A stretch of 64,000 bases of DNA, from positions 1 to 64,000 of the forward strand of contig NW_027457389.1 of NCBI RefSeq assembly GCF_027942865.1. Direction: 5' to 3'. Positions within the stretch are counted from its first letter, which is position 1, and each line of letters opens with the position of its first letter. Under the pieces are notes generated by a model. That model saw only the letters and a list, made by a program, of their open reading frames with translations. It was not told the origin of the DNA and searched no databases. This DNA is from Odontesthes bonariensis. Lineage: Eukaryota > Chordata > Actinopteri > Atheriniformes > Atherinopsidae. The position numbers and the translations under genes are program-made. Below, piece by piece: positions 5,255 through 49,214 of the stretch.

Positions 5255-7094
5255 TCAGTCTTTTTTTTCAGTTTTTTTGGGTGGACTCTTCCATCGCAGT
5301 TTGAAGTCAGTCAATCCCTGACGTGTCAGCAAGTCGTTCATCTGAAGAGGAATTAAATAAGCAGTCACCGACATAACCATAACTTATACTGAAATAAAAA
5401 CGGGGACAGAAAGTTTTACCTGCTGGAGGACCTGGCTGTAAATAGCTGGATCAGTCAGGTCAGCATCAGTCTCAGTCGTTATCTTGAAAGTGGAGGTCAT
5501 CCTTGAAACTGAACATAAACACTGAGTCAGAAATAATGGGACACATTTTAACTGAAAAGAAAATGTATTTCTTTATAACGTTATGAATAAGCACCTTGAT
5601 GGCAGATGAATGGCCACTTGTAACTACAGAACTCATCATGCCACTGATGCAAAGGACTTTCCATCACACAGTGTTGAATTCCATGAATGTTCCTTTCGTC
5701 TTCAGGGTCCCAGTTGGTGAGGGAGCTTTTGCTCTTGTCGGACCAAGTCCATGGAACTCTGTACAGACCGATCCAAGGTGCAGCTCCAGATGGTTTTGTC
5801 CTGAAAGCCTCAGCGTTTTCTTCCTCATTTTCAATCATTGCTAAGTCCGTGTAGTGTTTCCTGCAGTACTCTTGAGCAGACTTCCATGTTTCCCCTTGTG
5901 AGAAGAACACATAGTTTTTCTTGTTTTGCTTTGTAACTGCAACAGAAAATAAACCAGTGGAAGTTCAATTATTCCTCTTGTGCTGCATTTCAGTTTGTTT
6001 TTGCACAACGATGAAGATATTGATAACAACTGCTCAGCTGTTCCCAAGTGCTTAGATAGAAGCCAACAAGAACTATTTACTGGAAACCTGCCAGCTTGTG
6101 GTTCTCCTAAGGGTAGCTTGTTGAGCCATGAATTATAATTTAGAGGACATTTACAGAAGGTCATGAAATGGAAACTCCCTCTACGTTTAGATAATAATAA
6201 CAATAATGATCTAAATATAAATAAGCCTAATAATAAGGCTTCATGACTGCTGGCACATGCAAAGAGCATCATATGAATGTATACGTTTCCTTATTTAAAT
6301 AGAATCTATTATAGTTATAGTTAGTAAGACGTGCGTAAAGTTTTATGTACTTGGCACTCAGGGTCTTCCATAGTAAGAGGCATAAAGAGAAGCATTGCTG
6401 CACCGGAGGAGACACCTTTTATTACTATTTACGAAAAAATCTTTTTAAAATGATTGGATTAAATCTATAAAACATGACTTACCATTGTAGCAAATAAAGT
6501 CTTTGGTCAGGAAACAATCCATATCACCCCATAGTCCTGTGGTGTTCATCACTACACACGTTTCCTTTGCCCATATGTAATCTGGTTGACCAGAATCCCA
6601 CATCTGGAAACCGGTTTTGCTCGTTTCCCCGGTCGTTGACCATCTCCAAGAGTTGGTGTCATTGCCCATGGAAGTTTTCCAGGACTTGGGGTCATCCCAG
6701 AGTCCGATCCACGCAAAGGAATAAGAGAAATCAGCTTTCAGCCTGCTTATATCATCCATGCTTTCGAAGGTGGCCAAGTCGGTGTATTTGTCTCTGCAGT
6801 ACTGTTGAGCGTCTGCCCAATTCATTGGTATGTTAACATAGTGGTAATGACGCGCGGGGCACTGTGAGCAGGAGCTGAGGTCAAGTCCTACATATAGATG
6901 GAGGATGTAGTTAGTGTTTATTGAATCATTTAAACAAATTAACACAGTTATGCTGAAGTCTTTGATATTCACAGTAATTTTTGTTGTTGTTGTTTGGACA
7001 ACTCAGTGACCTAAGGAACATACAAACTCAAAATTTCCTTTTCACAGTTTTAAAAAAACAATTTGATGTTCTGCTAATTGTGATTTTATTTCAT

Positions 7095-7125
<31 letters not shown>

Positions 7126-10949: not shown

Positions 10950-13257
10950 TCAGTCTTTTTTTTCAGTTTTTTTGGGTGGACTCTTCCATCGCAGTTTGAA
11001 GTCAGTCAATCCCTGACGTGTCAGCAAGTCGTTCATCTGAAGAGGAATTAAATAAGCAGTCACCGACATAACCATAATTTATACTGAAATAAAAACGGGG
11101 ACAGAAAGTTTTACCTGCTGGAGGACCTGGCTGTAAATAGCTGGATCAGTCAGGTCAGCATCAGTCTCAGTCGTTATCTTGAAAGTGGAACTGAACATCC
11201 TTGAAACTGAACATAAACACTGAGTCAGAAATAATGGGACACATTTTAACTGAAAAGAAAATGTATTTCTTTATTACGTTGTGAATAATCACCTTGATGG
11301 CAGATGAATGGCTTCTTGGAACTACAGTAGTAATTAACCCACCTGTGCGATGTATCTGCCATCACACAGTGTCTGTTATCACCACCATATTTCCTCTTGT
11401 CTTCAGGGTTCCAGTTGGTGAAGGAGCTTTTGCTCTTGTCGGACCAAGTCCATGGAACTCTGTACAGACCGATCCAAGGTGTAGTTCCAGATGGTTTTGT
11501 CCTGTTAGCCTCAGCGTTTTCTTCCTCATTTTCAATCATTGCTAAGTCCGTGTAGTGTTTCCTGCAGTACTCTTGAGCAGACTTCCATGTTACCCCTTGT
11601 GAGATGTACACATAGTTTTTCTTGTTTTGCTTTGTAACTGCAACAGAAAATAAACCAGTGGAAGTTCAATTATTCCTCTTGTGCTGCATTTCAGTTTGTT
11701 TTTGCACAATGATGAAGATATTGATAACGACTGCTCAGCTGTTCCCAAGTGCTTAGATAGAAGCCAACAAGAACTATTTACTGGAAACCTGCCAGCTTGT
11801 GGTTCTCCTAAGGGTGTCACGCCCATGGGATTTTCCCATGTTTTTAGTTTTATGTTTTACATATTTTAGGTTTTATGTCTTGGGTTCATGTTTTGCCATT
11901 TGCTTTTCCCCTCACTTCACTTACCAGCTCATTAGTTTCACTCACTTCACCTGTCTTTTTCCCCTCAGCTGCACTCACTCACCTGTCACTCAGTCCCTAT
12001 TTAGTTTCCAGGCTAGTTTTCTTTGTCGATTTTCACCCCTCATGCTACGCCTCCACGATAAGTTAAGTGTTTTTTATGTATCATACCAAGTCTTTTGTTT
12101 TCGTTAGCCTCAGCCATGTTTATGTCTTTTGTTCCACAGTTAAGTTTCTTGTTGAGCCTTGAATTATAATTTAGAGGACATTCGCACAAGGTCATGAAAT
12201 AGCAGCTCCCTCTACGTTTAGATAATAATAACAATAATGATCTAAATATAAATAAGCCTAACAATAAGGCTTCATGACTGCTGGCACATACAAAGAGCAT
12301 CAAATGAATGTATACGTTTCCTTATTTAAATAGAATCTATTATAGTTATAGTTACTAAGACGTGCGTAAAGTTTTATGTGCTTGGCACTCAGGGTGTTCC
12401 ACAGTAAGAGGCATAAAGAGAAGCTTTGCTGCACCGGAGGAGACACCTTTTATTACTATTTACGAAAAAATCTTTTAAAAATCACTGGATTAAATCTATA
12501 AAACATGACTTACCATTGTAGCAAATAAAGTCTCTGGTCTGGGAACAATCCGTATCAAACCATACTCCTGCGGTTTCCATCGCTACACACGTTTCCTTTG
12601 CCCCTTTGTAATCTGGTTGACCAGAATCCCACATCTGGAAACCGGTTTTGCTCGTTTCCCCGGTCGTTGACCATCTCCAAGAGTTGGTGTCATTGCCCAT
12701 GGAAGTTTTCCAGGACTTGGGGTCATCCCAGAGTCCGATCCACGCCCAGGAATAAGAGAAATCTACTTTCAGCCTGCTTATATCATCCATGCTTTCGAAG
12801 GTGGCCAAGTCGGTGTATTTGTCTCTGCAGTACTGTTGAGCGTCGGTCCAATTCATTTGTAAGTTAACATAGTGGTAATGACGCGCGGGGCACTGTGAGC
12901 AGGAGCTGAGGTCAAGTCCTACATACAGATGGAGGATGTAGTTAGTGTTTATTGAATAATTTAAACAAATGAAACTAAATTTGTACTACAGGGCAGAAAA
13001 TGTTGGTATAAACAGAGGTGTATTGTTGTAGTGTTTTGTTTAATTAATAAAGTCAGTTACTGTTTACTGGAAAAATACTGTTAGATTTTATCCCCTTTTT
13101 CTGTGTTTCAATAGAAGAAAACTGTCTTCTGTCATCACCTGTCGATGTGGTATGATTAAAAAAGAGAAACACTCATTTATTTCATCGATAATGCTGAAAC
13201 ATTAATGCTCTTACCAAAGAACAGAGCAGCCATCATCATCATCATGAACCCATCCAT
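10950..13257 (-). CDS. Secreted double C-type lectin domain protein, copy C (intact, 323 aa)
   Basis: Exons in transcript order: 13257-13215, 12918-12514, 11637-11293, 11206-11115 and 11036-10950, all phase-consistent with GT/AG borders. Exon 1 encodes a methionine-rich signal peptide starting MDGFMMMMM. CTLD1 (about residues 15-149) has WIGLWDDP and QPD, with WFD in place of WND. CTLD2 (about 150-264) has WIGLYRVP but no EPN/QPD and carries an extra codon near its variable segment. The linker exon is one codon longer than in B, D and E (VSRMFSSTFK against VSRMTSTFK). The C-terminal exon ends in a lysine-rich WKSPPKKTEKKD. Intron 2 contains an LTR fragment at 11815-12147. The paralogue at the same place in the right unit is copy E. 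A soluble sugar- or pathogen-binding role is inferred from the fold. Confidence 0.88.
11815..12147 (+). mobile_element. Truncated solo LTR in lectin C intron
   Basis: It starts TGTCACGCCCATGGG and shares blocks with the LTR at 42309-42752: CCTCAGCTGCACTCA, CTATTTAGTTTCCAGG, CATGCTACGCC and TTCCACAGTT. Lectins B, D and E lack it at the same intron position. The 3' part of the LTR is missing and no clean target duplication remains. It is a relative of the young element, not the same copy. Confidence 0.7.
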
Positions 13258-13803
13258 TTTGATGTTTACTGCAAACAAGAAGATAATGTGACACAAAACC
13301 AGCTGTAAAGCTTCTACATGACTTTATTTGCAAATATTTCCAAACGAATACTTGTTATATCTGGATTTATTCTGCCTGAGTGAGATCTCTACTGGTTGAA
13401 AACTGGAATAATCCAAAATTATTCTCAAATTTATCCACCTTACAATCATTAAAATAACCAAGAAAAAACAGATTGCAACAAAAGAAAGTTTGTGGTTCTT
13501 TATGAAGATGAGCCCAAAAGAAATAAATGATTTTTAGTATATTGCCTGATTAGTTTCCTGTTGACTGATGGTCAAATTTATATGTAAACTCAGTAACTAA
13601 CTTAGTCTGTACTTGTTCACAGCTATAAACCATCAAAGGTTTTGATTTTGTCATCGAGAAAGAAGATTTTTACCAAATGAAACTCAACTAAAAGTTGACT
13701 GTATGATTTAAAAACTAGCTCCATGTGAGTCTTTCAGTCACATTGTAAAGGTTTGATACTCTATTCATCTGATAAGTACATTGGAAATATTAAAGTTACT
13801 TAC

Positions 13804-13919
13804 AAGTCTGAGTACAACGGCCGGAGGTTCTGAAGTCCGGTATGAATTGAACTGGTATATATGTGAAGTCGGACGTTAGACTGTATGAAAAATTCTTGGC
13901 GTAATTTTCATATGCAAAG
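13804..13919 (-). promoter_or_regulatory. Lectin copy C promoter and 5' untranslated exon
   Basis: Same arrangement as copy A: octamer-like CTTTGCATATG (13909-13919), TATA-like TATATACC (13854-13861) and an untranslated exon ending at 13804 with a GTAAGT donor. It is followed by an intron to the acceptor upstream of 13257. Confidence 0.6.
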
Positions 13920-14074
13920 TTTTCCTTTGGGGAAGTTATTTTTTGTGGGCTGTCCTTCCACTGCTTAGAGATCAATACAGTCTCTGTAAAACTGACTACA
14001 GTGAGGAAAAAAGTCATTTCAGGACCAATAGAGGCCTAAAATCGATTTACGTCTATAGATCGATAGATAAATAT

Positions 14075-14350
14075 GTTAATGTTTAACGTGGGTTGAGGTC
14101 AGGACTGCAGGAAGGCCATTCCATTGTCTGCACTCCCAAATTCCGGAGGTAGTCTTTGATAAAGCCTGCTCTGTGGGGGCGAGGGTGGTCATCTTAGAGG
14201 ATAGACTTTGGTCCCAGATCTTGTAGATAAGGGATTGCTACTGGTGAAAGAATCTCATCTTGATATCTCTCTCCATTCTGATTCCCTCCAATGATGACAA
14301 GCCTTGTGAGGAAGATGCTGCCCCACATCGTCACACTGTCTCCACCGAAA
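14075..14350 (-). mobile_element. Tc1/mariner remnant
   Basis: GGTTGAGGTCAGGACTGCAG, a GGTCATCTTAGAGGATAG region and a block about CCTTGTGAGGAAGATGCTGC are typical antisense Tc1 transposase sequence. It is a fragment without an open transposase frame. An identical copy is at 50049-50325. Confidence 0.7.
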
Positions 14351-14354
14351 GCTG

Positions 14355-14860
14355 TTATCCTACACTGTAAAACCCGATAAGTTATTTTAACTCAAAATAT
14401 TTTTTAAATTGATTACATTGAAAGTTTTGAGTAGTAGTATTTTAGTAAACGATTTTTGAAACGATTTTTTTAAGTAATAAAAACATCCTTGTTCAAGTAC
14501 TTTTTACTTGTTTAGTTTACTCAATTTTTACTCAATTTTTTTAATGTACAAAAAGTAAAGATAGTTACTTTTACTCAGTATTTTTGTTTTGAAAGCAAGT
14601 ATAGCTAACTGTAAAATTTAAATTATGTAAACTTAACTTGTTTAAGTTCAGGAAAGCTATACAAACCTCTTAAAACTTAAACATTTTACTTAACATCTTC
14701 TCAATTCTAGAAGTTAGTTACTTCATTTTTTTTGTTGAAAATGATTACATAAATTAAATTGTGTATTTTTGACTCAAACACAAGCACATTAAAAACATTA
14801 AATACAGTTTAACGCACATGATTTAACTTAAGTTACTCTTTTATTGAGTTACAACTACAA
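14355..14860. repeat. AT-rich interspersed repeat
   Basis: It starts CACTGTAAAACCCGATAAG and continues with runs rich in AGTTACTTTTACTCA-type motifs, resembling a small non-autonomous DNA element. I could not define matching termini or a target duplication. The duplicate lies at about 50336-50832. No gene seen. Confidence 0.4.
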
Positions 14861-14929
14861 ATATACACAAATACTATTATATATAATACTATTATAATAC
14901 TAGTAATACAAATACTATTAAATAATATT

Positions 14930-14933
<4 letters not shown>

Positions 14934-14976
<43 letters not shown>
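14934..14976. repeat. TA microsatellite
   Basis: An uninterrupted AT dinucleotide run of about 40 bases. The same run is present near 50907-50948. Confidence 0.95.
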
Positions 14977-14983
<7 letters not shown>

Positions 14984-15188
14984 GTATATACACAGCACAC
15001 TCCTCTTACCACTATTTTCATTTGCAAAGATTGACCTCTATGGTTCTCTTTCTCTATAAGGATATTTTGGGCAGTAATAGCCTTCATTCAACATGTTCAC
15101 ACTAAAGGGCCCAGAGAGTGTGGGGAAGGCATGCAGCAAAGGGCGTCGGTATTGGCTTGGGTTGGGGTTGTAGTGTATTGTTTACTGA

Positions 15189-15315
15189 TTCAAGGTAAAC
15201 ACAAGAAACTTGTGCTAAAGGAAAAACAAAAATGGACCAGACTCAGTGAATAATTCCCTATACTCCCTATATAGATCAGTGAGCAATGCTGACCAACATG
15301 TCATTGGGGTCATCA
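15189..15315. repeat. Long direct repeat flanking the LINE, left arm
   Basis: GATTCAAGGTAAACACAAG through CAACATGTCATTGGGG recurs at 20796 to about 20908 on the other side of the LINE, and again around the right-hand LINE copy (51161-51287 and 56812-56945). The arms are about 110-125 bp. They may be an unusually long target-site duplication. Confidence 0.7.
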
Positions 15316-15783
15316 GCTGGGAACCTCCTTTCATCAGTGTTTCGTCGAGTTGGGCCCACGACACCTCCAGGAGGCTAGACAATGACCACTGGCGTCCCAG
15401 AGTCACCCCCCTAATGCCAGCCAACACTGCTCCTCACACCACAACAACCATCTTTTACAGCCACAAGCTACCTCAGCCTCTCACCAACTGCACACCAGTC
15501 ACAGCGGGGTGGGGATTCAAACCCTGGTTATGGTAGGGAGTAATGAAAATATAGAGGGTGCCAGAGGTGGAGGCAGGACAAGACACAATAGCAGATTCAG
15601 CAGACACTCGCCTTAACAGTCCTATAATCACTAAAAATGCCAGCAAAAACTAAGCCATACAACTCACTCAAAGCCAACTCACTCAAAATGGCCGCCTGGT
15701 TTCAAAAGGCTCACATGGGCCGCACCCTACACTTAAATATCTTGAACTTCTTCTTTGCTTTTCCAAAAGTCTGTTTACCCTAT

Positions 15784-17144
15784 TGCCCCTTTTCCACCGC
15801 CAAGCTAGCCCTACTCTACTCGGTTCGATATAGCCCGACACTACACCACACGACACGGCACCAGTAACATTTTCTTTTCCACCAGAAACCGAGACCTGGA
15901 AGTGGGCGGAGTCCGCCCGTTCACCACTAACGTGACGTCGGTTTCAGGTGATTACAAAGTGTCACGCCGCGGTTAGTCAAAAGTAAACACAACGATGGAG
16001 TGTAATGTGTAACGCAGTTGACAATCCATATTGTTTAGTTAAACCAAGCTCTTTATTAAAAAAGACAGTACAAAAGTAAACAGCAGGAGTTGTCTCAGAT
16101 ACAGGCGTCGACGCCAGTGTTGGTGCCGGTGGAATGCAGATAGCAGCTGTTGCCTCAGCTGCAGATTGCGATGCCAGTGTCGGTTCTGAAGCCTGCAGGA
16201 TTGGAGGATCTTCGCTGACCTCAGCAACCGAACACTCATCGGTTGCACAAACCGAGTCTTGAGGGAAAAAAAATAAAAAGTGTGAACATACGAAACGCAT
16301 ACACGTAACCGCATAGGTGAGACACTGTGCTAGCCTTCCAAAACAGCGTTGTTTGCTAGCTCACTCAGAACAACTTACATGAGACACCTGTGTAACGTTT
16401 TACACAAGTTAAAGACTGAACATGTATTTGTTACGATATAAAACATGCATTTGTTAAGATATAAGCGTTGCACCAAGGGGATAAGAACAACACTTACCAT
16501 TTTCCATCGCCTCCAACAAAGACGTCGCCGAATCCACGCCGTTCGCCGGGCGGTGACCGTAAATGCCGTCCATTTGGTCGAACCACTTCCATGTCTTTCG
16601 GTTTGACCCACTCCGGCTGTTGTGGTCCTTTACCTGCCGGTAATCACTCTTCAGCTTGTCTCGGTACTGCTGAGAATTCCGGTGATAGCCATGGTTAGCC
16701 ATCAGCTTGGCTTCTCATTTCGTGTTGCTCCGTCCAGTTCCTTCTGTACGCGGTCCTCGGCCACCACACACAGAAAGGTCTGCACCTCGCTCACTGTCCA
16801 TGGGTTGGCTTTCCTTCTCTGGTCTTCCATCTTCGCAATTCTGTTTATTCTCTGTTGCTCTCGCAGGTGTGTTTTCATACATGGCGGGTGATTATATAAA
16901 GCTCCCCGAGCTTCGTTGCGTGTATGACGTAATTTCACCTGACCAATCAGTGGACAGCACTAATCACGTGACGTTTTTAGCACCGACTAGTACCTACTAG
17001 ACCCACCTCTGAAGCAGGTACTTGCTGGGGCTCAAAATTGTAATGGGTCCCACCTTCAACCCGCGGTGGAAAAGCTCACAATCAGGGTAGAGTGGGACCG
17101 TGTAGAGCTGTGTTGGTACAAAAATGTTCGGTGGAAAAGGGGCA
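15784..17144 (-). mobile_element. Harbinger/ISL2EU-like element nested in LINE
   Basis: Terminal inverted repeats TGCCCCTTTTCCACCG (left) and CGGTGGAAAAGGGGCA (right) bound a 1.36 kb element inserted between the LINE endonuclease region and its 3' untranslated part. The only gene recognisable inside is a broken Myb/SANT-like protein. No transposase is visible, so it would depend on enzymes elsewhere. A target duplication could not be resolved. The same element is at 51756-53116. Confidence 0.75.
16050..16830 (-). pseudogene. Harbinger Myb/SANT-like accessory protein, broken
   Basis: Transcribed on the minus strand. Exon 1 starts MEDQRRKANPWTVSEVQTFL, the opening of a Myb/SANT-like DNA-binding domain, and continues with HRNSQQYRDKLKSDYRQVKD and RKTWKWFDQMDGIYGHRP. 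The two parts are in different frames around 16700, with residues missing between RNEK and MANHGY, so the domain is interrupted. A donor GTAAGTG follows ...LEAMENG near 16500. A second exon (about 16050-16262) encodes an acidic, alanine/threonine-rich tail and is followed by AATAAAG. Such proteins accompany Harbinger transposases and are thought to help DNA binding and nuclear import. Confidence 0.65.
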
Positions 17145-17145
17145 T

Positions 17146-20100
17146 GAGTGCTGCCCCTGCTGGGCCCCCAGCTGCTATTGCTTCTTCTAATCCAAATCCA
17201 CTGACTGGACTTTACTGGCTCATCAGACACTTCCTTCACTATTTTCCTCACACTCTGTCCACTTACACCCAACTCCCTCAACGATAAGACAACAGACTTT
17301 GCAACAAATCCTCTACATCCTACTTCCACTGGACATATCCTAACTTTCCATCCTCGCTACTCTGCTTCTGCCCCCAACTCCACATATCTAAGCTTTTTAC
17401 TTTCATATGCTTCTGCTACTAATTCCTCCCAAGGAACAGTCAGCTCTATGAAATAGACTCTCATTCTACTCCTAGACCATAAGACTATATCAGGCCTTAG
17501 ATTTGTAGAGGCTATCTCCTGGGGAACAACAAGCTTATTTCATAAATCTACCTGCATCTCCCAATCACAAGCATCCTCCAAGCTGCCGTGCCTCCTTATC
17601 GTCTTATTAACTTTCTCCCCCTCTTGAACAAACTGAATTGCAACTCTCTTCACCTTAGACCCTCCTAAGTTTACCTGCCTTCGTTTATCTTCAATACCTG
17701 CAGCTAAGCTTCTTAATACTTGGTCATGTCGCCATGTATACCGGCCTTGTGACAGACTAACCTTACAACCTGACAAAATATGCCTTAGAGTTGCAGTACC
17801 TGAACATAACGAGCATAACGGGTCTCCATTTACCCAGAGTTTTAGGTTCTGGGGAGTTGGCAATACATCATATGTTGCCCCTATCAAAAGTCTAATACTC
17901 CTTTCGTCCATACTCCACGGTTCTTTCCAACTAAGCTTTTTCTTCTCTACACCTTCCCAATTCAACCACCGTCCCTGCTTAGCCTGAGCCACTGCCTTTG
18001 CACCCCTTAACATTTCCTCCTGTCTACGAACCTGCTCAACAACTAGCTTTCTCTTCTCCTTGGGACCTGCTCTACTCCACACTGGTTTGCCTGGACCAAG
18101 CCCCAAGCCTCCCCGGCCTATTTGCACATTACCCACAATGTCTAAGAGTTTCTTCTGCCTCCTGAGCTGCCATTCTTGGTTTCCACTTCCTCCCCTTGGT
18201 TGGGTTTGGAACCACCTTACTAACTACCACATCTTTACTCCCAGCTAACAGGAGCTCTGTCCTAACTTTAGTAAATTTAAACTCCTCTACTAGACTAGAT
18301 ACTGGGAGCTGGAGTATGCCTTTCCCATAAAGTGCCACCGTACTTAAGCATCTAGGAACACCTGGCCACTTCCTAATATAAAAACTAACTAATCTTTCCA
18401 TTTTTTCTACAACAGATAATGGAATCTCATACACAGACAGTGGCCACATCAACCTAGGAAATAATCCAAACTGCAGACACCACAGCTTCAACTTTCCTGG
18501 AAGCTCCGATTTATCTATTCTATCCAGTCCCTCAGCAACATCTTTCCGAAACTGCACTGCCTGCTCTCCATCATTCATGTCTGCCTGGTACCACCTGCCT
18601 AAACTCTTTACTGCCTTTTCCCTAATTATTGGAATGTTTTCTTCATCTATTAAAAACTTTCTATCAGTTAATTTCCCTCTACTTATTGAGATACTTCTAG
18701 ACTTAGTAGGTTTGATTTTCATACCAGCCCACTTTAGATTTTTATTAAGTCTCTCAAGTATTCTCTTCATACGTGGCACTGTTGTAGTCACTAACGTCAT
18801 ATCATCCATGTATGCTCTAATTGGTGTAAGACGCATGCCATCCTGACGTCTCTCTCCACCTACAACCCACTTGGAAGCTCTAATAATTATCTCCATCGCC
18901 ATTGTAAATGCTAATGGAGAAATCGTACACCCTGCCATAATGCCTATTTCTAGCCTCTGCCAACCTGTTGTGAAACCTGCTGTACTTAGGCACAGTCTAA
19001 TATCCTGAAAATATGCTCTTGCTAAGTTAACAACTACTATGGGCACTCTAAAATACTGAAACGCTTTCCAAATAAGGCTATGTGGCACTGAACCAAATAC
19101 ATTTGCTAGATCCAGAAATATAACATGCAAGTCTTTTTTTCTCAATCTTGGCTGTCTGAATCTGATGCCAAATCATGCTAGTGTGCTCTAAACACCCTGC
19201 TAAACCTGGTATTCCTGCCTTCTGCACAGTAGTATCTATCAAGCTATTCTTTTCTAAATAACTAGCTAATCTCTGTGCAACTAAACTAAAGAAAATCTTC
19301 CCCTCGACATTTAGGAGAGAGATCATCCGGAACTGACTCAGGTCCGAGGACTCTTTCTCCTTTGGAATAATAACGCCTCCTGCCCTACGCCATGCTCTAG
19401 GAATAACCTGTTTCTCCCAAACTATTCTTAATTGCCTCCACAAAATCTTTAGGATATCAGGTGCACTTTTATAAACCCGGTAGGGGACTCCATTTGGCCC
19501 TGGGGCCGACGAAGCCTTTGCACGCCTGACTACCTCCTCAACCTCTTTCCACCTAGGTGGTCTAACATCCATCTTATGAGCTATCTCTCCTAATGGTGGC
19601 ATGTCAGGTGGAAGGCCTACTACTCTACGCTGCTCAAGATCTGAATATGTATTTCTTAGATACTCTTCCACCTCTGACTTTGTTGCCTTAAGCTGCCCTC
19701 CCTTTTCCTGGTTAAACAATCCTTTAAAAAACTTGAACGGGTCCCTGTAAAATGCAGTCCTTACATATTCTTTCTTCTTTCTCTTTTTCCTAAGACATTC
19801 AGCCCTTCTGAGTATTGCTAGCCTGTTTCTTCTGTAACTCTTTTCCACTGCTTTCTTAAATTTCTTCTTTCCTTAACCAATTTCTCCATCTCTTTTTGCC
19901 GTCTAGACTTAACTAAATGTACTCTTTCAACCCTCTTTCTATCTTGCACCCCAAATATTTCTATACCATAGGAGTAAATTATATCTCCCATCTTCTCTAG
20001 CCTATCGCTTGCTTTTCCTCCTAACCTACCCAATACTATCGACAAATCTTTATTGACTGCCTCCCATTCTTTGTTACTATTTGCCCTAGGCCACTTAACT

Positions 20101-20547
20101 CTAGCTTTCTGCTCCATATTTCTCTCTATAACTGGCCTGTTCACCTCAGTATCAGCTGCATCCCTTCTTAGAACCTCCTCCGTAGCTGTGTTATTGATAT
20201 CCTTCGGACTGTGGTTTTCTACCTGCCACTGGACTTCATCTGACTTACTCGATTGACTTCTTAAAAAGTACTGATCGATTCGGCCACACTGCCCTTCCTT
20301 TACCACATCTCTTTCTTCCCTGATGCATTTTAAGTCCTCTAACTGATGTTACTTTCTGCCAGCCACAAGGACAAACCTGGAGCTTACTTCCCTCTAGTCT
20401 ACCACTTTTATTTTGTCCAACTACGCTCTCTTTCCTCTGAGAACTATTCTGGTCAGTTCTAGCCCTAGAGAATAGGTCTGTCCCCCTATCCTTCACTGAC
20501 TCGCGTATCCACCTCATAGTCATGTTCGTTCCAGTGTCAGTTGCCAT
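17146..20547 (-). pseudogene. LINE polyprotein: zinc finger, reverse transcriptase, RLE-type endonuclease (disabled)
   Basis: Reading from 20547 leftward: a zinc finger (VCPCGWQKV...KMHQGRKRC), a basic coiled region, then the reverse transcriptase from about 19848 to 18129 with SSAPGPNGVPYR, GIPGLAGC and the catalytic AYMDDM. A C-terminal part (18136-17540) has a CSLCSGTATLRHILSGC knuckle. After an in-frame TGA come LRPDIVLWS and VYFIELTVPWEE, the PD...E core of a restriction-like endonuclease, then a second stop. Frameshifts lie near 19140 (poly-A run), 18130 and 19830. A 2-base deletion near 20306 and a deletion near 19820 are private to this copy; the stops and the first two frameshifts are shared with 53118-56559. 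Confidence 0.85.
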
Positions 20548-20796
20548 GTAGTCTGCCTGTGAGTCATCTTCCGCCCCTGCTCTCGCTGACTCTTGGGGTA
20601 TTCTCTTTAATCTATTTGTAGCTTATGCTGGTTGTAACAAAGCTGCTAGGCCTCGCTACCGCTACCATGGATTGCTAGCTCATGGCAGCACCTTTGGGGT
20701 CTTTGCCTCCTGTCAGCTGTCTTTCCAATCTGTCACATGGTCTTTCCCTTCTTGTCAGCTGCCCTATTCACAACAGTCACTAGCTAGGCTGGATTT

Positions 20797-20908
20797 GTAT
20801 TCAAGGTAAACACAAGAAACTTGTGCTAAAGGAAAAAAAAATGGACCAGACTCAGTGAATAATTCCCTATACTAGATTAGTGAGCAATGCTGACCAACAT
20901 GTCATTCT
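20797..20908. repeat. Long direct repeat flanking the LINE, right arm
   Basis: Matches 15190-15302 with a short deletion (CTCCCTATATAGATCAG reduced to AGATTAG). It abuts the 5' end of the LINE and runs directly into the ORF segment at 20909. Confidence 0.7.
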
Positions 20909-32818: not shown

Positions 32819-32822
32819 TTAA

Positions 32823-33620: not shown

Positions 33621-33656
<36 letters not shown>

Positions 33657-38048: not shown

Positions 38049-40002
38049 TCAGTCTTTTTTTTCAGTTTTTTTGGGTGGACTCTTCCATCGCAGTTTGAAG
38101 TCAGTCAATCCCTGACGTGTCAGCAAGTCGTTCATCTGAAGAGGAATTAAATAAGCAGTCACCGACATAACCATAATTTATACTGAAATAAAAACGGGGA
38201 CAGAAAGTTTTACCTGCTGGAGGACCTGGCTGTAAACAGCTGGATCAGTCAGGTCAGCATCAGTCTCAGTCGTTATCTTGAAAGTGGAGGTCATCCTTGG
38301 AACTGAACATAAACACTGAGTCAGAAATAATGGGACACATTTGAACTGAAAAGGAAATGTATTTCTTTATAACGTTATGAATAATCACCTTGATGGCAGA
38401 TGAATGGCCACTTGGAACTACAAGGGTCATCAAGCCACTGATGCAACTTATTTTCTGCCACACAGTGTTGTTTACCACCATAGTTCCTGTTGTCTTCAGG
38501 GTCCCAGTTGGTGAAGGAGCTTTTGTTCTTGTCGGACCAAGTCCATGGAACTCTGTACAGACCGATCCAAAGTGCAAGTCCAGATGTTTTTTTCCTGTTA
38601 GCCTCAGCGTTTTCTTTCTCATTTTCAATCATTGCTAAGTCCGTGTAGTGTTTCCTGCAGTACTCTTGAGCAGACTTCCATGTTTCCCCTTGTGAGATGT
38701 ACACATAGTTTTTCTTGTTTTGCTTTGTAACTGCAACAGAAAATAAACCAGTGGAAGTTCAATTATTCCTCTTGTGCTGCATTTCAGTTTGTTTTTGCAC
38801 AATGATGAAGATATTGATAACAACTGCTCAGCTGTTCCCAAGTGCTTAGATAGAAGCCAACAAGAACTATTTACTGGAAACCTGCCAGCTTGTGGTTCTC
38901 CTAAGTAGCTTGTTGAGCCTTGAATTGTAATTTAGGTTATGAAATAGGAGCTCCCTCTACGTTTATATAATAATGATAATAATAATAAAAATATAAATAT
39001 AAATAAGCCTAATAATAAGGTTTCATGACTGCTGGCACATACAAAGAGCATCATATGAATGTATACGTTTCCTTATTTAAATAGAATCTATTATAGTTAT
39101 AGTTAGTAAGACGTGCGTAAAGTTTTATGTACTTGGCACTCAGGGTCTTCCATAGTAAGAGGCATAAAGAGAAGCTTTGCTGCACCGGAGGAGACACCTT
39201 TTATTACTATTTATGAAAAAATCTTTTAAAAATCACTGGATTAAATCTATAAAACATGACTTACCATTGTAGCAAATAAAGTTTCTGGTTGGGGAACAAT
39301 CCGTATCAAACCAAACTCCTGTGGTGTCCATCACTCCACACGTTTCCTTTGCCCCTTTGTAATCTGGTTGACCAGAATCCCACATCTGGAAACCGGTTTT
39401 GCTCGTTTCCCCGGTGGTTGACCATCTTCAAGAGTTGGTGTCATTGACCATGGAAGTTTTCCAGGACTTGGGGTCATCCCAGAGTCCGATCCACGCAAAG
39501 GAATAAGAGAAATCAGCTTTCAGCCTGCTTATATCATCCATGCTTTCGAAGGCGGCCAAGTCGGTGTATTTGTCTCTGCAGTACTGTTGAGCGTCGGTCC
39601 AATTCATTGGTAAGTTAACATAGTGGTAATGACGCGCGGGGCACTGTGAGCAGGAGCTGAGGTCAAGTCCTACATATAGATGGAGGATGTAGTTAGTGTT
39701 TATTGAATCATTTAAACAAATGAAACTAAATTTGTACTACAGGGCAGAAAATGTTGGTATAAACAGAGGTGTATTGTTGTAGTGTTTTGTTTAATTAATA
39801 AAGTCAGTTACTGTTTACTGGAAAAATACTGTTAGATTTTATCCCCTTTTTCTGTTTCAACAGAAGAAAACTGTCTTCTGTCATCACCTGTCGATGTGGT
39901 ATGATTGAAAAAGAGAAACACTCATTTATTTCATCGATATGCTGAAACATTAATGCTCTTACCAAAGAACAGAGCAGCCATCATCATCATGAACCCATCC
40001 AT
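38049..40002 (-). pseudogene. Double C-type lectin copy D, nonsense codon in CTLD1
   Basis: Exons: 40002-39963, 39669-39265, 38730-38389, 38302-38214 and 38135-38049, with all splice sites intact and the same phases as C and E. At 39430-39428 the codon that is TGG in B, C and E is TGA, ending the protein at codon 94, before the QPD site. CTLD2, linker and tail remain open, so the lesion may be recent. Exon 1 encodes MDGFMMMMAALFF. CTLD2 has its own variable block around CVAENKLHQWLDDPC. It is the counterpart of copy A. A truncated product, or readthrough, cannot be excluded; a base error in the assembly would also explain it. Confidence 0.8.
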
Positions 40003-42303: not shown

Positions 42304-42308
42304 ACCTG

Positions 42309-42752
42309 TGTAACGCCATGTCACGAGTTTAGGTCATGTTTTGGTTTATAGTTCATGTCTTAGTTTAGTGTTTTTTCTCATGTTTTAGGTTCAGGTCTTG
42401 TTTAGTTTTCATGTCACGTCACCCTCTCCTTCCCTGCAATCAGCCTCACGTCCCTCACCTGTGTTTTCCCCTTCAGCTGCACTCAATCCCTAATCACCCT
42501 CCACAGTATTTAGTTTCCAGGTTTCTTTTCAGTTCTTGTGAGATCCTTCCCCGTCACCATCCATGCTACGCCACGCCACAGATAAGTTTCCATGCTTTTG
42601 TTTTGTTTCGTCATAGATATTTCCACAGTTTAGGTTTTTGTATCCGGCTCAGCCGCGCTTTCCTTTTGGTACTTTGTTTTTGTTAAATAAATCTATTTTA
42701 CTTTTGGAAAATCCGCATCCGTGTCCTCCCTTCAAACCCAACCTTGCTGACA
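42309..42752 (+). repeat. 5' LTR
   Basis: U3 contains TATTTA at 42507-42512. About 30 bases later GTGAGATCCTTC (42538-42549) is the predicted transcript start. An AATAAA near 42684 is the likely poly(A) signal. The LTR ends CA directly before the primer site. Confidence 0.92.
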
Positions 42753-42764: not shown

Positions 42765-42768
42765 CACC

Positions 42769-44850
42769 ATGGACGCGGCGGATTACTCAGCCTTATGGGA
42801 GCTGGTCGGGGACTTCTGGTGCCGCTCAGGACCGAACAGCACCACCTGGGAGAAACTAAACTCCTCCAATGACGTTTTGGATTTCTTTGTGCAAAAACGG
42901 GTCCTCCAGCACTTACCCACGGTGTCAGCTATCTGGGAGGAGGTCAGGACTGTACAGCGCACTGCCTCACTGGAAATTTTCGGCTTGGAGCCAGAAGAGG
43001 TAGCTGCGCTGTACAGCTCCTCCTCCTTACCTGCACCGCAGCCCCCGGCCCCAGCCGTTCCAGAGCTGGCCCCGGCCCCAGCCGTTCCAGAGCTGGCCCC
43101 GGCCCCAGCCGTTCCAGAGCTGGCCCCGGCCCCAGCCGTTCCAGAGCTGGCCCCGGCCCCAGCCGTTCCAGAGCTGGCCCCGGCCCCAGCCGTTCCAGAG
43201 CTGGCCCCGGCCCCAGCCGTTCCAGAGCTGGCCCCGGCCCCAGCCGTTCCAGAGCTCTCCACAGAGGCCGCGGGGCCTGAGCTCTCCACAGAGGCCGCGG
43301 GGCCTGAGCTCTCCACAGAGGCCGCGGGGCCTGAGCTCTCCACAGAGGCCGCGGGGCCAGACCAAGAGGCCGCGGGGCCTGACCAAGAGGCCGCGGGGCC
43401 CGACCAAGAGGCCGCGGGGCCCGACCAAGAGGCCACAGGGCCCGACCAAGAGGCCACAGGGCCAGACCAAGAGGCCACAGGGCCAGACCAAGAGGCCACA
43501 GGGCCAGACCAAGAGGCCACGGGGCCCGACCAAGCCACAGCCACAGAGGCCGCGGGGCCCGACCAAGCCACAGCCACAGAGGCCGCGGGGCCCGACCAAG
43601 CCACAGCCACAGAGGCCGCGGGGCCCGACCAAGCCACAGCCACAGAGGCCGCGGGGCCCCACCAAGCCACAGCCACAGAGGCCGCGGGGCCCCACCAAGC
43701 CACAGCCACAGAGGCCGCGGGGCCCGACCAAGCCACAGCCACAGAGGCCGCGGGGCCCGACCAAGCCACAGCCACAGAGGCCGCGGGGCCCCACCAAGCC
43801 ACAGCCACAGAGGCCGCGGGGCCCCACCAAGCCACAGCCACAGAGGCCGCGGGGCCCGACCAAGCCACAGCCACAGAGGCCGCGGGGCCCGACCAAGCCA
43901 CAGCCACAGAGCAGGCCACAGAGCAGGCCACAGAGCAGGCCACAGAGCAGGCCACAGAGCAGGCCACTCGAGCCCCTCCCTCCCACCCCCAGATATTGGG
44001 GATGTCTGGGATCCATCCCTTAAGGGGGGGGCTCTCCCCTTGCCGTCGGATGTCTGGCCGCCCGCCAGACCACCGCCTCCTGCTGCCACGCCGACGGAAG
44101 TCCGGGCGTCCGCCAGACCACCGCCTCCTGCTGCCACGCCACGGGATGTCTGGCCGCCCGCCAGACCACCGCCTCCTGCTGCCACGCCATGGGATGTCTG
44201 GCCGCCCGCCAGACCACCGCCTCCTGCTGCCACGCCACGGGATGTCTGGCCGCCCGCCAGACCACCGCCTCCTGCTGCCACGCCACGGGAAGTCTGGCCG
44301 CCCGCCAGACCACCGCCTCCTGCCTCCACGCCGACGGAAGTCCGGGCGTCCGCCGGACCACCGCCGTCACCTGCCGCCACGCCATGGGAGGTCTGGGCGT
44401 CCGCCAGACCACCGCTTGTTCCTGCCACGCCATGGGAAGTCTGGGCGTCCGCCAGACCACCGCTTGTTCCTGCCACGCCATGGGAGGTCTGGGCGTCTGC
44501 CAGACCACCGCCTGTTCCTGCCGCCACGCCATGGGAGGTCTGGGCGTCTGCCAGACCACCGCTTGTTCCCGCCACTCCATGGGAAGTCTGGGCGTCCGCC
44601 GGACCACCGCCTGTTCCTGCCGCCACGCCATGGGAGGTCTGGGCGTCCGCCAGACCACCGTCTCCTGCTGCCCGAACCCGGTACGAGCTGCAGGCCTGGT
44701 TGGCCACTGCATCCACGCAGCCTGGATGTCTGGTCCCCGTCGGACCGGTTTCAAGCCCCTCCCTCCCACCCTCAGAATTTTTTTTTTTTAGGGTCGTCTG
44801 GGATCCGACCCTTGAGGGGGGGGCTCTGTAACGCCATGTCACGAGTTTAG
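42769..44850 (+). CDS. Tandem-repeat protein of the LTR element, 693 codons
   Basis: It starts in a strong context (CACCACCATGG) only four bases after the primer site. Residues 1-85 are unique: MDAADYSALWELVGDFWCRS through GLEPEEVAALY, possibly a gag-like or matrix-like head; I do not recognise a named domain. Then come 8 copies of a 9-residue APAVPELAP unit, 4 of ELSTEAAGP, 8 of the 7-residue DQEAAGP/DQEATGP, 12 of the 11-residue DQATATEAAGP (some HQ) and 5 of EQAT, all acidic and alanine/proline-rich. After 43970 the frame reads arginine-rich SGRPPDHRLLLPRHG units. Another frame (44040-44831) reads a more protein-like PWEVWASARPPLVPAT repeat, so a frame change at the G-run near 44025 is possible. 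The stop lies inside the 3' LTR. Confidence 0.6.
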   Translation: MDAADYSALWELVGDFWCRSGPNSTTWEKLNSSNDVLDFFVQKRVLQHLPTVSAIWEEVRTVQRTASLEIFGLEPEEVAALYSSSSLPAPQPPAPAVPELAPAPAVPELAPAPAVPELAPAPAVPELAPAPAVPELAPAPAVPELAPAPAVPELAPAPAVPELSTEAAGPELSTEAAGPELSTEAAGPELSTEAAGPDQEAAGPDQEAAGPDQEAAGPDQEATGPDQEATGPDQEATGPDQEATGPDQEATGPDQATATEAAGPDQATATEAAGPDQATATEAAGPDQATATEAAGPHQATATEAAGPHQATATEAAGPDQATATEAAGPDQATATEAAGPHQATATEAAGPHQATATEAAGPDQATATEAAGPDQATATEQATEQATEQATEQATEQATRAPPSHPQILGMSGIHPLRGGLSPCRRMSGRPPDHRLLLPRRRKSGRPPDHRLLLPRHGMSGRPPDHRLLLPRHGMSGRPPDHRLLLPRHGMSGRPPDHRLLLPRHGKSGRPPDHRLLPPRRRKSGRPPDHRRHLPPRHGRSGRPPDHRLFLPRHGKSGRPPDHRLFLPRHGRSGRLPDHRLFLPPRHGRSGRLPDHRLFPPLHGKSGRPPDHRLFLPPRHGRSGRPPDHRLLLPEPGTSCRPGWPLHPRSLDVWSPSDRFQAPPSHPQNFFFLGSSGIRPLRGGLCNAMSRV
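44814..44826 (+). promoter_or_regulatory. Polypurine tract
   Basis: A GAGGGGGGGG run directly before the 3' LTR, the expected plus-strand primer of an LTR element. A very similar AAGGGGGGGGCTCT occurs internally at about 44023-44036. Confidence 0.75.
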
Positions 44851-45270
44851 GTCATGTTTTGGTTTATAGTTCATGTCTTAGTTTAGTGTTTTTTCTCATG
44901 TTTTAGGTTCAGGTCTTGTTTAGTTTTCATGTCACGTCACCCTCTCCTTCCCTGCAATCAGCCTCACGTCCCTCACCTGTGTTTTCCCCTTCAGCTGCAC
45001 TCAATCCCTAATCACCCTCCACAGTATTTAGTTTCCAGGTTTCTTTTCAGTTCTTGTGAGATCCTTCCCCGTCACCATCCATGCTACGCCACGCCACAGA
45101 TAAGTTTCCATGCTTTTGTTTTGTTTCGTCATAGATATTTCCACAGTTTAGGTTTTTGTATCCGGCTCAGCCGCGCTTTCCTTTTGGTACTTTGTTTTTG
45201 TTAAATAAATCTATTTTACTTTTGGAAAATCCGCATCCGTGTCCTCCCTTCAAACCCAACCTTGCTGACA
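44827..45270 (+). repeat. 3' LTR
   Basis: Same length as the 5' LTR and identical by eye, with the same 91-codon incidental ORF in both. Confidence 0.92.
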
Positions 45271-45275
45271 ACCTG

Positions 45276-45796
45276 TAAGTTGAAAAAACAGAGAAATAAA
45301 ACAAAACAACAAAGAAAAAAGAAAGCACAAGCACAAACAACACAACCGTGGATACAGATGGCCCGAAACCACAGGACAACACAGCAACTGCATAGCAAGC
45401 ATGCGAATGGGCCAATAAATGGGTGTGTGTGCACATGTAATACACTCAGCATAGGTCCCACATGAACCGTGCTCAGTTATGAGTGTATAAGGCCACCCCC
45501 ACCCCCCCCAGCTATCAGAAGCAGGCAGGGAGGACCCCAAGACCCAGGCCACCAGCAGCCCCCATGGAGCACAAAACCGGGGAAGCCCAGGGACAACCAT
45601 GCATCCACCCAGAACACTGCAGAGGAAGCCCAAGGACAGAACCCCCACGACCATAGGACAGAGGCCTCCCGGGAATCAGGGGCAACAGCCCAGCGGCCCC
45701 GCCAGGTCCCTGCCAACCAGACACAGGTCGAGTGCCGTACCCGGGCACTCTAAATGCCCCCCGGTGACAATAAAGATGAACTTAAACCTTGAATGT
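45276..45796 (+). mobile_element. 3' end of a LINE-like retroelement (right copy)
   Basis: Counterpart of 3244-3836, slightly shortened (it lacks the CATACATGTGG...GCTGCACA stretch near its end). It ends GACAATAAAGATGAAC and CTTAAACCTTGAA. Confidence 0.5.
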
Positions 45797-47208
45797 GTAA
45801 TCTAAATATAGAAAATGACATCAGATGCTGCTGATGCAGTGGTCACGTAATGTTACCATGAATATATACACATGCAGCACAGATAAAACTGCACAGGTAT
45901 AATCAGACAGACACTAATCAGGGACACATGTTTAATCTGAGTATAGACAAGGTCTCTTTGCAGAAAACATGTCTTGTAGAAAAAAAAAGATCATGAAATT
46001 GAATGGAAAGTCATTATTAAAAACACTGATGGATTTGAAATTGTTTTATAATAAGCAGCGGCTGTCATTGCTTTAAACTTTGAGATCCCTTTGGGAATAT
46101 AAAGACATGCTCAGAGTTTTATTGGTTGAAAAATCCGAAAACAAGCTCATTATTATTCAGACTATCTTTATTTATCTTAAAACATGTTCCAGGTTATCTT
46201 ATCTGCTGATGACAGTAATAAAGTCAAATCACTCAGTGAGAAATAAAAACACATCAAAGTTGAACAGTGTTTAAAAAAATGAATTGAACTAAAGTAATTA
46301 TTAAAAAGAATAAAACAACAAACAAGCACAGAAATCATGGCCCTTATCTAATGAAGCTCTGTTAAAAATGCATATCATATGATTAGTTGTTGGTAAAAGT
46401 GCCACTTTGGTTCAATCTGTCACTTAAATTAGAGCAAAAGAAAGAAAAAGAAACTTAAAAATCTATCAGTCCCGTCTCTCATTTTGTCCACGAGTTGCTG
46501 CTGTCGGTTTCTGAGCCTCCACGTGAGACATTACGGTTGCAGACGTGTTACTGTTTAGAAAATGTGAGTTGTGCACAGGTAAAATCATCATGTACTTCAG
46601 GGTTTTGTGTTCCAACTGAAGTAGAGCTGGAGCTGAATAAAAGCCACGTCTGCTGCAGAATCATTTCTCACAGAACAAATCACCAATTAAACATTTTCAC
46701 ATGCATTTCAGAGCCAGATGTAAGCAGATGTTAGCAGGGTTTCTGACAAGTGTAAAAAGGGCTTTACACTGATGAGGCTTAAATGTTGCTTACCTAATTT
46801 TCATAAAGGCGTCTGCTAAATGATCAAATGTAAATGCACATTATATCACCATGTTGATGACTACTTGAACTGAAAGATGGAGGAAAAACTACTGATGTGC
46901 GTATGTTTCTAAATTCCTTCTTATGTTCAATGAGACTGACCTAATAATTGAATAAGATGCTTAATAAAACTTGCTGCTGCCAAGGTAACCATGGCTTTTA
47001 CCACATCACCCGGGACTAAAATCTAATGGCATTCAGTTTTAAGTTGTACCAGTGAAAATCCACACAAATATATATGCGTATGTGATTTGATTATAAATCA
47101 AATACTACTCAAGTCAAACTACATAAAAGCTTAAGTACAGTTCACCACAGTGAAGAGAGACAATCAAAACGGCATTAAGAACAGTTGAGTACATGATTGT
47201 TCCTTGAT
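45797..47208 (-). other. Lectin E 3' untranslated and downstream flank
   Basis: Counterpart of the flanks of B and C. No separate gene supported. Confidence 0.5.
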
Positions 47209-49214
47209 TTAAATCACTGAGTTTTGTGAATTCCTCTCAGTCTTTTTTTCAGTTTTTTTGGGTGGAGTCTTCCATCGCAGTTTGAAGTCAGTCAATCCCT
47301 GACGTGTCAGCAAGTCGTTCATCTGAAGAGGAATTAAATAAGCAGTCACCGACATAACCATAATTTATACTGAAATAAAAACGGGGACAGAAAGTTTTAC
47401 CTGCTGGAGGACCTGGCTGTAAACAGCTGGATCAGTCAGGTCAGCATCAGTCTCAGTCGTTATCTTGAAAGTGGAGGTCATCCTTGGAACTGAACATAAA
47501 CACTGAGTCAGAAATAATGGGACACATTTTAACTGAAGGGAAAATGTATTTCTTTATAACGTTATGAATAATCACCTTGGTGGCAGATGAATGGCTTCTG
47601 TTGACTACAGACCCCATCATGCCACTGATGCGAATTATATTCTAACACACAGTGTTGATTACCACCAGTATTGCTCTTGTCATTAGGGTCCCAGTTGGTG
47701 AAGGAGCTTTTGCTCTTGTCGGACCAAGTCCATGGAACTCTGTACAGACCGATCCAAGGTGTAGTTCCAGATGGTTTTGTCCTGTTAGCCTCAGCGTTTT
47801 CTTCCTCATTTTCAATCATTGCTAAGTCCGTGTAGTGTTTCCTGCAGTACTCTTGAGCAGACTTCCATGTTTCCCCTTGTGAGATGTACACATAGTTTTT
47901 CTTGTTTTGCTTTGTAACTGCAACAGAAAATAAATAAGTGGAAGTTCAATTATTCCTCTTGTGCTGCATTTCAGTTTGTTTTTGCACAATGATGAAGGTA
48001 TTGATAACAACTGCTCAGCTGTTCCCAAGTGCTTAGATAGAAGCCAACAAGAACTATTTACTGGAAACCTGCCAGCTTGTGGTTCTCCTAAGGGTAGCCT
48101 GTTGAGCCATGAATTATGATTTAGAGGACGTTCGCACAAGGTTATGAAATAGCAGCTGCCTCTACCTTTAGAAAATGATAATAATAATAATAATAATAAT
48201 GATCTAAATATAAATAAGCCTAATAATAAGGCTTCATGACTGCTGGCACATACAAAGAGCATCATATGAATGTATACGTTTCCTTATTTGAATAGGATTG
48301 ATTATAGTTATAGTTAGTAAGACGTGCGTAAAGTTTTATGTACTTGGCACTCAGGGTCTTCCATAGTAAGAGGCATAAAGAGAAGCATTGCTGCACCGGA
48401 GGAGACACCTTTTTTTACTATTTATGAAAAAATCTTTTAAAAATCACTGGATTAAATCTATAAAACATGACTTACCATTGTAGCAAATAAAGTCTCTGGT
48501 TGGGGAACAATCCGTATCAAACCATAGTCCTGCGGTGTCCATCACTCCACACGTTTCCTTTGCCCCTTTGTAATCTGGTTGAGCAGAATCCCACATCTGG
48601 AAACCGGTTTTGCTCGTTTCCCCGGTCGTTGACCATCTCCAAGAGTTGGTGTCATTGCCCATGGAAGTTTTCCAGGACTTGGGGTCATCCCAGAGTCCGA
48701 TCCACGCATAGGAATAAGAAAAATCAGCTTTCAGCCTGCTTATATCATCCATGCTTTCGAAGGTGGCCAAGTCGGTGTATTTGTCTCTGCAGTACTGTTG
48801 AGCGTCGGCCCAATTCATTTGTAAGTTAACATAGTGGTAATGACGCGCGGGGTACTGTGAGCAGGAGCTGAGGTCAAGTCCTACATACAGATGGAGGATG
48901 TAGTTAGTGTTTATTGAATCATTTAAACAAATGAAACTAAATTTGTACTACAGGGCAGAAAATGTTGGTATAAACAGAGGTGTATTGTTGTAGTGTTTTG
49001 TTTAATTGATAAAGTTAGTTACTGTTTATTGGAAAAAATACTGTTAGATTTTATCCCCTTTTTCTGTGTTTCAATAGAAGAAAACTGTCTTCTGTCATCG
49101 CCTGTCGTATGATTGAAAAAGAGAAACACTCATTTATTTCATCGATAATGCTGAAACATTAATGCTCTTACCAAAGAACAGAGCAGTCATCATCATCATC
49201 ATGAACCCATCCAT
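47209..49214 (-). CDS. Secreted double C-type lectin domain protein, copy E (330 aa, altered tail and Cys)
   Basis: Exons: 49214-49172, 48880-48476, 47917-47576, 47489-47401 and 47322-47209, splice sites intact and frame continuous. Exon 1 encodes a signal peptide beginning MDGFMMMMMTALFF. Residue 24, a Cys in B, C and D (CSQCP), is Tyr here (TAC at 48854-48852), leaving an N-terminal Cys unpaired. CTLD1 keeps WIGLWDDP and has AQPD rather than GQPD. CTLD2 has its own variable block around CVLEYNSHQWHDGVC. The last exon has one fewer A in an A-run (a 7-T run after CAGTC on the plus strand), so the frame passes the usual stop and adds about ten residues before TAA at 47211-47209. It is the paralogue of copy C. 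Folding of the altered domain is uncertain. Confidence 0.82.
48176..48205. repeat. AAT microsatellite in lectin E intron
   Basis: A run of ATA/ATG triplets, longer here than in the same intron of B, C and D. Confidence 0.8.

Follow-up and report, generated by a model that had tools for sequence, protein, structure and literature searches.

Short, highly variable segments on a conserved scaffold in a tandem family of dual C-type lectin-like domain genes from the fish Odontesthes bonariensis

We analysed a stretch of 64,000 nucleotides of O. bonariensis DNA (the window; positions 1-64000 of contig C50, which is 72,117 bases long and belongs to a 945-Mb assembly of 187 contigs). Its minus strand carries four genes, B, C, D and E, and the first exon of a fifth, A, from a tandem family whose members each encode two C-type lectin-like domains (CTLD1 and CTLD2). 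Differences between the copies are concentrated in short blocks of the two domains; amino-acid changes are in excess in the CTLD1 block and in two small patches of CTLD2, and pairs of copies share significantly long runs of variants. Taken together, these observations are probably best explained by a germline repertoire of soluble dual-CTLD proteins, in which a frozen scaffold would carry diversified and shuffled binding segments.

Variable segments on a conserved scaffold

The model for gene E, built from reading frames and splice signals, comprises five exons: a short hydrophobic first exon, one exon each for CTLD1 and CTLD2, and two small exons that hardly vary between copies. Junctions at the CTLD exons are of phase 1, and inspection by eye showed no membrane span; the exon ends of B, C and D were set by alignment to E (Table 1). 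All eight CTLDs of B-E in the window exceed the PF00059 cut-off of 22.6 bits (55.6 bits for CTLD1 and 69.5 for CTLD2 of E, 61.2 for CTLD2 of B; CTLD1 of D contains one stop), a profile match that assigns them to the C-type lectin-like domain superfamily. Gene D is likely a pseudogene, given the in-frame TGA at 39428-39430 in its CTLD1, and no first exon matching gene B or its near-copy G2 was recognisable nearby. A protein search with CTLD2 of E, together with exon-level matches, identified at least 16 distinct members, one of them (H4, or H4p) truncated, with 14 lying in two subarrays on contig C6; the count is a lower bound, with 150 of 164 protein-search candidates and 150 of 407 in the Pfam search having been scored. 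A lone CTLD2 exon fragment lies at C7:15858578-15858789, distant from the array.

Throughout, B and C were counted once each and their duplicate placements, B6 and C6, left out. H4p entered the sliding divergence plot and the distinct-block count and was left out of all selection, Mantel, run and pairwise homoplasy index (PHI) tests. D, with its stop, was left out of the CTLD1 coding tests and the intact-member set, and was kept in the intron rows, the Mantel and run tests (where the stop codon formed one column set), the distinct-block count and the window-only comparison. The flanks of H7 and H8 are incomplete.

All 16 CTLD2 blocks differ from one another, and 14 of 15 CTLD1 blocks are distinct. 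Within the CTLD2 block (D76-F111), 57 of 108 nucleotides segregate, compared with 33 of 267 in the adjoining introns (15 members; Fisher p 1.8e-15); for CTLD1 the figures are 44 of 102 and 56 of 255 (14 members; p 8.7e-5), and codon permutation confirms the concentration of nonsynonymous divergence (dN) in both domains alike (p 1e-4). A first-pass annotation of this DNA had proposed just such a concentration in CTLD2 beside similar introns, and the four peptides it quoted for B-E all lie on the minus strand where it had placed them. The first motif, which it read as FTNWDP, is LTNWDP in B and FTNWNP in C. It had also named equal divergence in the flanking introns as the observation that would speak against it, and the introns proved far less diverged than the block: divergence (K) is 0.009-0.043 in those adjoining CTLD2 and 0.041-0.075 in those adjoining CTLD1, with 0.12 in a wider, indel-rich stretch of 300 bases.

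Sliding divergence among the 16 members reaches 0.19-0.20 in 45-base windows that start at exon positions 228-285. Windows with starts at 48-198 have values of 0.007-0.07, and beyond position 370 or so divergence drops to 0.003-0.04. The first 45 or so exon bases (0.11-0.14) and the noisier part upstream (0.07-0.32) are inflated, in part because the H4p sequence there is unrelated; with H4p removed, K is 0.015 over the last 120 bases of intron 2. The minimum number of mutations per nucleotide is 0.78 in the CTLD2 block and 0.04 in the CTLD2 scaffold, and 0.56 in the CTLD1 block and 0.08 in the remainder of CTLD1. Copies are near-identical in the scaffold of both domains and in the exonic and intronic sequence 3' of CTLD2. 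The earlier description of the first two thirds of CTLD2 as almost identical therefore holds for the scaffold, though not uniformly, since two patches outside the block vary (0.49 mutations per nucleotide): one of six codons (YISQGE) and one of eleven codons that ends just before WIGL.

Aligned with the second CTLD matched in chain 5ao5 (C-type mannose receptor 2), CTLD2 has columns 79-81 at EPN and a W-x-D at WND, so that the block extends from the end of the long loop through the WND position. This agrees with where the first-pass annotation had put it, and the placement rests on sequence alignment only; two AlphaFold2 models of window domains, from alignments of four and three rows, reached a predicted local distance difference test score (pLDDT) of about 44 and were set aside. 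A canonical calcium-dependent sugar-binding CTLD has EPN or QPD plus the WND motif. The WND asparagine is replaced in all 16 CTLD2s, which have no EPN or QPD at the aligned place; among CTLD1s, 13 of 15 have QPD (the others QPN and EPD) and all 15 have the WND asparagine replaced. As the motif is thus incomplete in every copy, none is predicted to be a canonical sugar binder, and with its ligand positions altered CTLD2 is not expected to bind sugar in the ordinary calcium-dependent way. This lowers the case for canonical sugar binding, not for the binding of something at this site, where the variable residues would contact a ligand.

As a control we used a further tandem array of CTLD exons, which lies at C23:10601468-10656628 of this genome, with five members sampled of the nine matches listed. 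Exon divergence there is 0.07-0.25, and the flanks range from 0.09-0.18 (the next 270 or so bases on one side) to 0.19-0.56 (the other flank and further out), so that among these five no peak stands above most of the flanks. Overall, the dN/dS ratio of these members is 0.75, and the matching block has 0.81.

Selection and exchange among the copies

Rates of nonsynonymous and synonymous substitution were estimated by the Nei-Gojobori method (NG86) from 15 CTLD2 and 14 CTLD1 sequences, and by one-ratio (M0) and site models in a purpose-made implementation that kept branch lengths in proportion; minimum changes were also counted without a tree and compared with a random expectation, which for the CTLD2 block is about 79% nonsynonymous. 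The clearest signal lies in CTLD1. Its block has a dN of 0.183 and a dS of 0.023 (dN/dS about 8), the rest of the domain having 0.020 and 0.032; the minimum count is 55 nonsynonymous to 2 synonymous (p 5.5e-5), the M0 omega is 12 (p 3.3e-7 or less) and third codon positions are avoided (5 of 57 changes). The two CTLD2 patches behave likewise, with minimum counts of 10:0 (p 0.055) and 15:0 (p 0.0055), together 25:0, an M0 omega at the upper bound (p 6e-6 or less) and one third-position change in 25. The CTLD1 block and the CTLD2 patches thus have both a dN/dS above 1 and a divergence above that of the linked introns, as expected of a positively selected recognition family. CTLD1 had been thought to show a weaker version of the CTLD2 pattern; it is weaker in divergence and stronger in selection.

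The CTLD2 block reaches the same standard by site models only. Its dN of 0.247 is accompanied by a dS of 0.198, giving a ratio of 1.25 (confidence interval 0.69-2.27; 1.04 for the window genes B-E alone), and outside the block dN is 0.042 and dS 0.010. The raw count of 73 nonsynonymous to 15 synonymous changes fits the first-pass statement that differences are mostly amino-acid-changing, but does not exceed random expectation (p 0.20); the M0 omega of 1.41-1.62 is not significant (p 0.11-0.23) and third positions are not avoided (23 of 84, p 0.15). Site models fitted to the block alone reject their null models (M1a/M2a p 5e-6; M7/M8 p 1e-6), with a class of sites at an omega near 4 and codons 78, 80, 83, 92, 94, 104, 107 and 109 marked; M2a and M8 outperform M1a and M7 within each block alone and also outside the CTLD2 block. 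Omission of B, D, G2 and H4p leaves the picture of selection unchanged. The diversifying selection suggested at the outset is therefore clear for the CTLD1 block and the CTLD2 patches, but not for the mean of the CTLD2 block.

Synonymous change separates the two blocks. Where two copies encode the same amino acid, the proportion of synonymous sites that differ is 0.145 in the CTLD2 block and 0.010 in the rest of the exon (permutation p 1e-4), and is still 0.103 without the gap-prone columns 79-88 (permutation p 6e-4); in the CTLD1 block it is 0. Variation in the CTLD2 block is therefore older than in the surrounding sequence, or mutates faster, or both, and the block looks like an island that has escaped homogenisation or mutates faster, rather than the product of fresh positive selection only. 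The CTLD1 block, unlike it, holds no such older or faster-mutating variation.

Run tests modelled on GENECONV, in which shared variants were compared against permuted columns for 105 pairs, detected long shared runs in 10 pairs for CTLD2, 7 for CTLD1 and 16 for the joint set, where about one pair was expected for each domain (global p 0.0099, the floor of the test). PHI was significant for the CTLD2 exon (p 0.02), the CTLD2 block (p 0.0135) and the joint set (p 0.035). Run tests in both domains and PHI in CTLD2 indicate exchange among paralogues, as the first-pass annotation had proposed, and gene conversion would be the mechanism. Between-copy distances in the CTLD1 block, CTLD2 block, patches and tail are uncorrelated (Mantel r -0.20 to 0.16), the exception being the rest of CTLD1 and the tail (r 0.31, p 0.03). 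By eye, CTLD2 of H7 resembles G1 and H2 at its front (AGDNEHC) and B in its middle (PLHQW), and G1, G3 and A have a nearly common CTLD1 block, while the CTLD2 block of G1 is unlike that of G3 and A.

How the diversity may have arisen

A repertoire of soluble dual-CTLD proteins, which we consider the probable explanation, would be built by three processes. Unequal crossing-over would produce copies, sequence exchange would homogenise most of each gene and move short segments among copies, and selection would favour copies with differing binding segments. Differences in the CTLD1 block and the two CTLD2 patches would have arisen as amino-acid-changing mutations under positive selection; variants of the CTLD2 block would, as well, be older or faster-mutating than the sequence around them. 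The predicted proteins would be secreted and take an immune role, and their likely use would be as a germline-encoded repertoire that binds many different, probably microbial, ligands.

Several observations weigh against this explanation. The CTLD2 block has a mean dN/dS of about 1.0-1.6, which does not significantly exceed 1, since its synonymous change has risen more than tenfold too, and the site models that do find selection presume a single tree, which exchange violates; such tests are biased when copies exchange sequence. No significant PHI signal emerged for CTLD1 as a whole (p 0.07), for its block (p 0.16) or for the part of CTLD2 beyond the block (p 0.92), and the near-zero Mantel correlations would also arise under a star-like history. 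Given the stop in D, the truncation of one further member and the lack of a recognisable first exon in B and G2, not all of the diversity is expressed as protein. In the C23 control, too, divergence is higher in the C-terminal third of the exon (0.18-0.25 vs 0.07-0.14 in the rest), so some extra variation at this end of a CTLD exon may be general, and once the most distant control copy is excluded, the other four have a dN/dS of 1.76 overall, from few changes.

Tentatively, the two hypervariable cassettes of each predicted secreted protein, along with the two small CTLD2 patches, might assort near-independently through short-tract exchange across some 15 genes whose remaining sequence is kept almost uniform, which would make the family a combinatorial germline repertoire. 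Such a repertoire would use the CTLD fold much as bacterial diversity-generating systems do, without somatic change; as yet we regard both the assortment and the analogy as possible but somewhat doubtful.

The raised synonymous difference in the CTLD2 block (0.145 vs 0.010, permutation p 1e-4) and its mean dN/dS near 1 could be read more simply, with an array that has been homogenised everywhere except in one conversion-shielded block of old neutral variation, under little or no positive selection. We think this unlikely as the whole account, since the CTLD1 block and CTLD2 patches are rich in amino-acid changes with almost no synonymous ones, and site models favour a class near omega 4 inside the CTLD2 block itself. 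Equally unlikely, in our estimate, is that the variable segments play a non-immune role under selection of another kind, for example in the recognition of gametes or of self, or in binding mucus or ice. None of our results identifies a ligand and the canonical sugar and calcium motif is incomplete in all copies, which would suit such a role; nothing counts directly against it, and the description on which we draw for the fish group with the same architecture assigns it no function (PMC514892).

A locally raised mutation rate, for instance by targeted hypermutation of the CTLD2 block, would account for the rise of synonymous and nonsynonymous change together in that block, but is very improbable: the CTLD1 block and the patches, for which hypermutation is unnecessary, show no rise in synonymous change, and no further template copy of the gene C block was found in the assembly. 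Diversity-generating retroelements act by error-prone reverse transcription from a template. A genome search with the gene C block returned 18 matches, namely the 16 genes and two duplicate placements, all of them array members; within this search, which used one block and had limited sensitivity, there was neither a template repeat of that type nor an external donor. Least plausible of all is relaxed constraint, whereby most copies became redundant after massive duplication and their loops drifted: one in-frame stop, one truncated copy and two copies without a recognised first exon would suit it, but drift should stay within the neutral rate, scaffold codons are kept and dN exceeds adjoining intron divergence about 2.4-4.5-fold in the CTLD1 block and 6-27-fold in the CTLD2 block, on which ground we reject it.

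If the preferred explanation is true, fish hold, beside antibodies, an inherited library of soluble recognition proteins with a fixed scaffold and swappable binding segments. The family is also a clear natural example in which selection and gene conversion may be told apart, with near-pure positive selection in CTLD1 and an island in CTLD2 where both kinds of change are raised, and copies that differ mainly in their variable segments allow a direct test of whether their targets differ.

Genomic setting and comparison with known systems

Table 1. Coordinates of the lectin family features, in the window unless a contig is named
Feature	Position	Strand	Basis or remark
Gene E CTLD2 exon	47576..47917	-	gene model; Pfam PF00059 E 4.9e-19
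Gene E CTLD2 hypervariable block (D76-F111)	47589..47690	-	alignment/divergence of family members
Gene E CTLD1 exon	48476..48880	-	gene model; Pfam PF00059 E 9.9e-15
Gene E CTLD1 hypervariable block (columns 96-129)	48492..48593	-	
Gene E first coding exon, signal-peptide-like start MDGFMMMMMTALFFG	49172..49214	-	
Gene E exons 4 and 5 region, near-invariant C-terminal tail	47180..47490	-	
Gene D CTLD2 exon	38389..38730	-	ends by alignment to E
Gene D CTLD2 hypervariable block	38402..38503	-	
Gene D CTLD1 exon	39265..39669	-	ends by alignment to E
Gene C CTLD2 exon	11293..11637	-	ends by alignment to E
Gene C CTLD2 hypervariable block, longer by one codon	11306..11410	-	
Gene C CTLD1 exon	12514..12918	-	ends by alignment to E
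Gene B CTLD2 exon	5595..5936	-	ends by alignment to E
Gene B CTLD2 hypervariable block	5608..5709	-	
Gene B CTLD1 exon	6483..6887	-	ends by alignment to E
Gene A first coding exon	227..266	-	lectin exons outside window, C6:34905081-34906367
G1, G2, G3, A, B, C	C6:34.88-34.92 Mb	minus	
H1-H8	C6:35.04-35.19 Mb	plus	H4 (H4p) truncated

Contig C50 largely duplicates part of C6. On the right side C50:55801-72117 equals C6:34926268-34942584 with 0 mismatches in 16.3 kb, and on the left side C50:1-19825 differs from C6 at 6 positions in 19.8 kb, all within 19001-19825; the C50 copies of B and C are identical to their C6 copies across the 960-980 bases compared per domain. The two contigs differ by about 36 kb that carry D and E, which are found on C50 only. 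Either this sequence was dropped from C6 or copy number differs, and the difference fits unequal crossing-over between repeats 36 kb apart, or assembly collapse. Window positions 12150-20906 and 48100-56927 are near-identical segments about 36 kb apart, and C6 has one version only. Two reverse-transcriptase (RVT_1) open reading frames of equal Pfam score (18129-19145 and 54101-55117, both on the minus strand) sit on the two copies of this repeated segment.

Between D and E, direct repeats at 42309-42752 and 44827-45270 are identical across 444 bases and enclose a GC-rich minisatellite stretch at 43043-44672, in which a mechanical open reading frame of 693 amino acids has no Pfam match; the arrangement resembles a non-autonomous long-terminal-repeat element. 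On the minus strand at 57095-57231 there is a sequence resembling a first exon of the lectin family, with no family CTLD exon alongside.

Among solved structures, the best sequence matches of the array are CTLDs of the mannose receptor, PLA2R and LY75, with which it has the CTLD fold and core motifs in common as far as a sequence match can tell; these are large multi-CTLD membrane receptors. The closest named group by predicted architecture is the soluble dual-CTLD group F1 of Fugu. As described for Fugu and zebrafish, F1 proteins are about 30% identical between species and inferred to be fast-evolving (PMC514892). They resemble the array in having two CTLDs and no apparent membrane span, in being fish proteins and in their inferred fast evolution; the description on which we base this comparison mentions no tandemly arrayed genes whose hypervariable blocks sit on a frozen scaffold (PMC514892). 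Of the features that define the group, two (or three) CTLDs per protein are matched by CTLD1 and CTLD2 exons in one predicted gene model. For solubility, which calls for a signal peptide and no membrane span, that model offers a hydrophobic first exon and a hydrophilic tail, judged by eye, which may fit; for at least one CTLD with calcium and carbohydrate residues, the array offers QPD in most CTLD1s, yet an altered WND in every one. Among the open-licence PMC articles listed by our literature searches, none showed the hypervariable-block pattern for soluble lectins of fish, which is weak evidence of absence.

Rapidly evolving sites are described as clustering in the carbohydrate-recognition regions of mammalian C-type lectin receptors such as langerin and CLEC12A (PMC10329266); these are likewise positively selected, but are single genes compared across species, where the array comprises 16 paralogues in one genome. 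Going by its description, accelerated segment switch in exons (ASSET) in snake venom proteins radically replaces short exon segments and affects target-binding loops (PMC2711939). It resembles the array in replacing short segments on a kept scaffold and differs in concerning venom families, whereas runs shared between paralogues suggest exchange as a source in the fish array. The variable proteins of diversity-generating retroelements, again as described, carry their heavily varied residues on a stable scaffold, the C-type lectin fold (PMC6328139); those systems are prokaryotic or viral, and the fish array, with the same fold as its variable scaffold, consists of germline paralogues.

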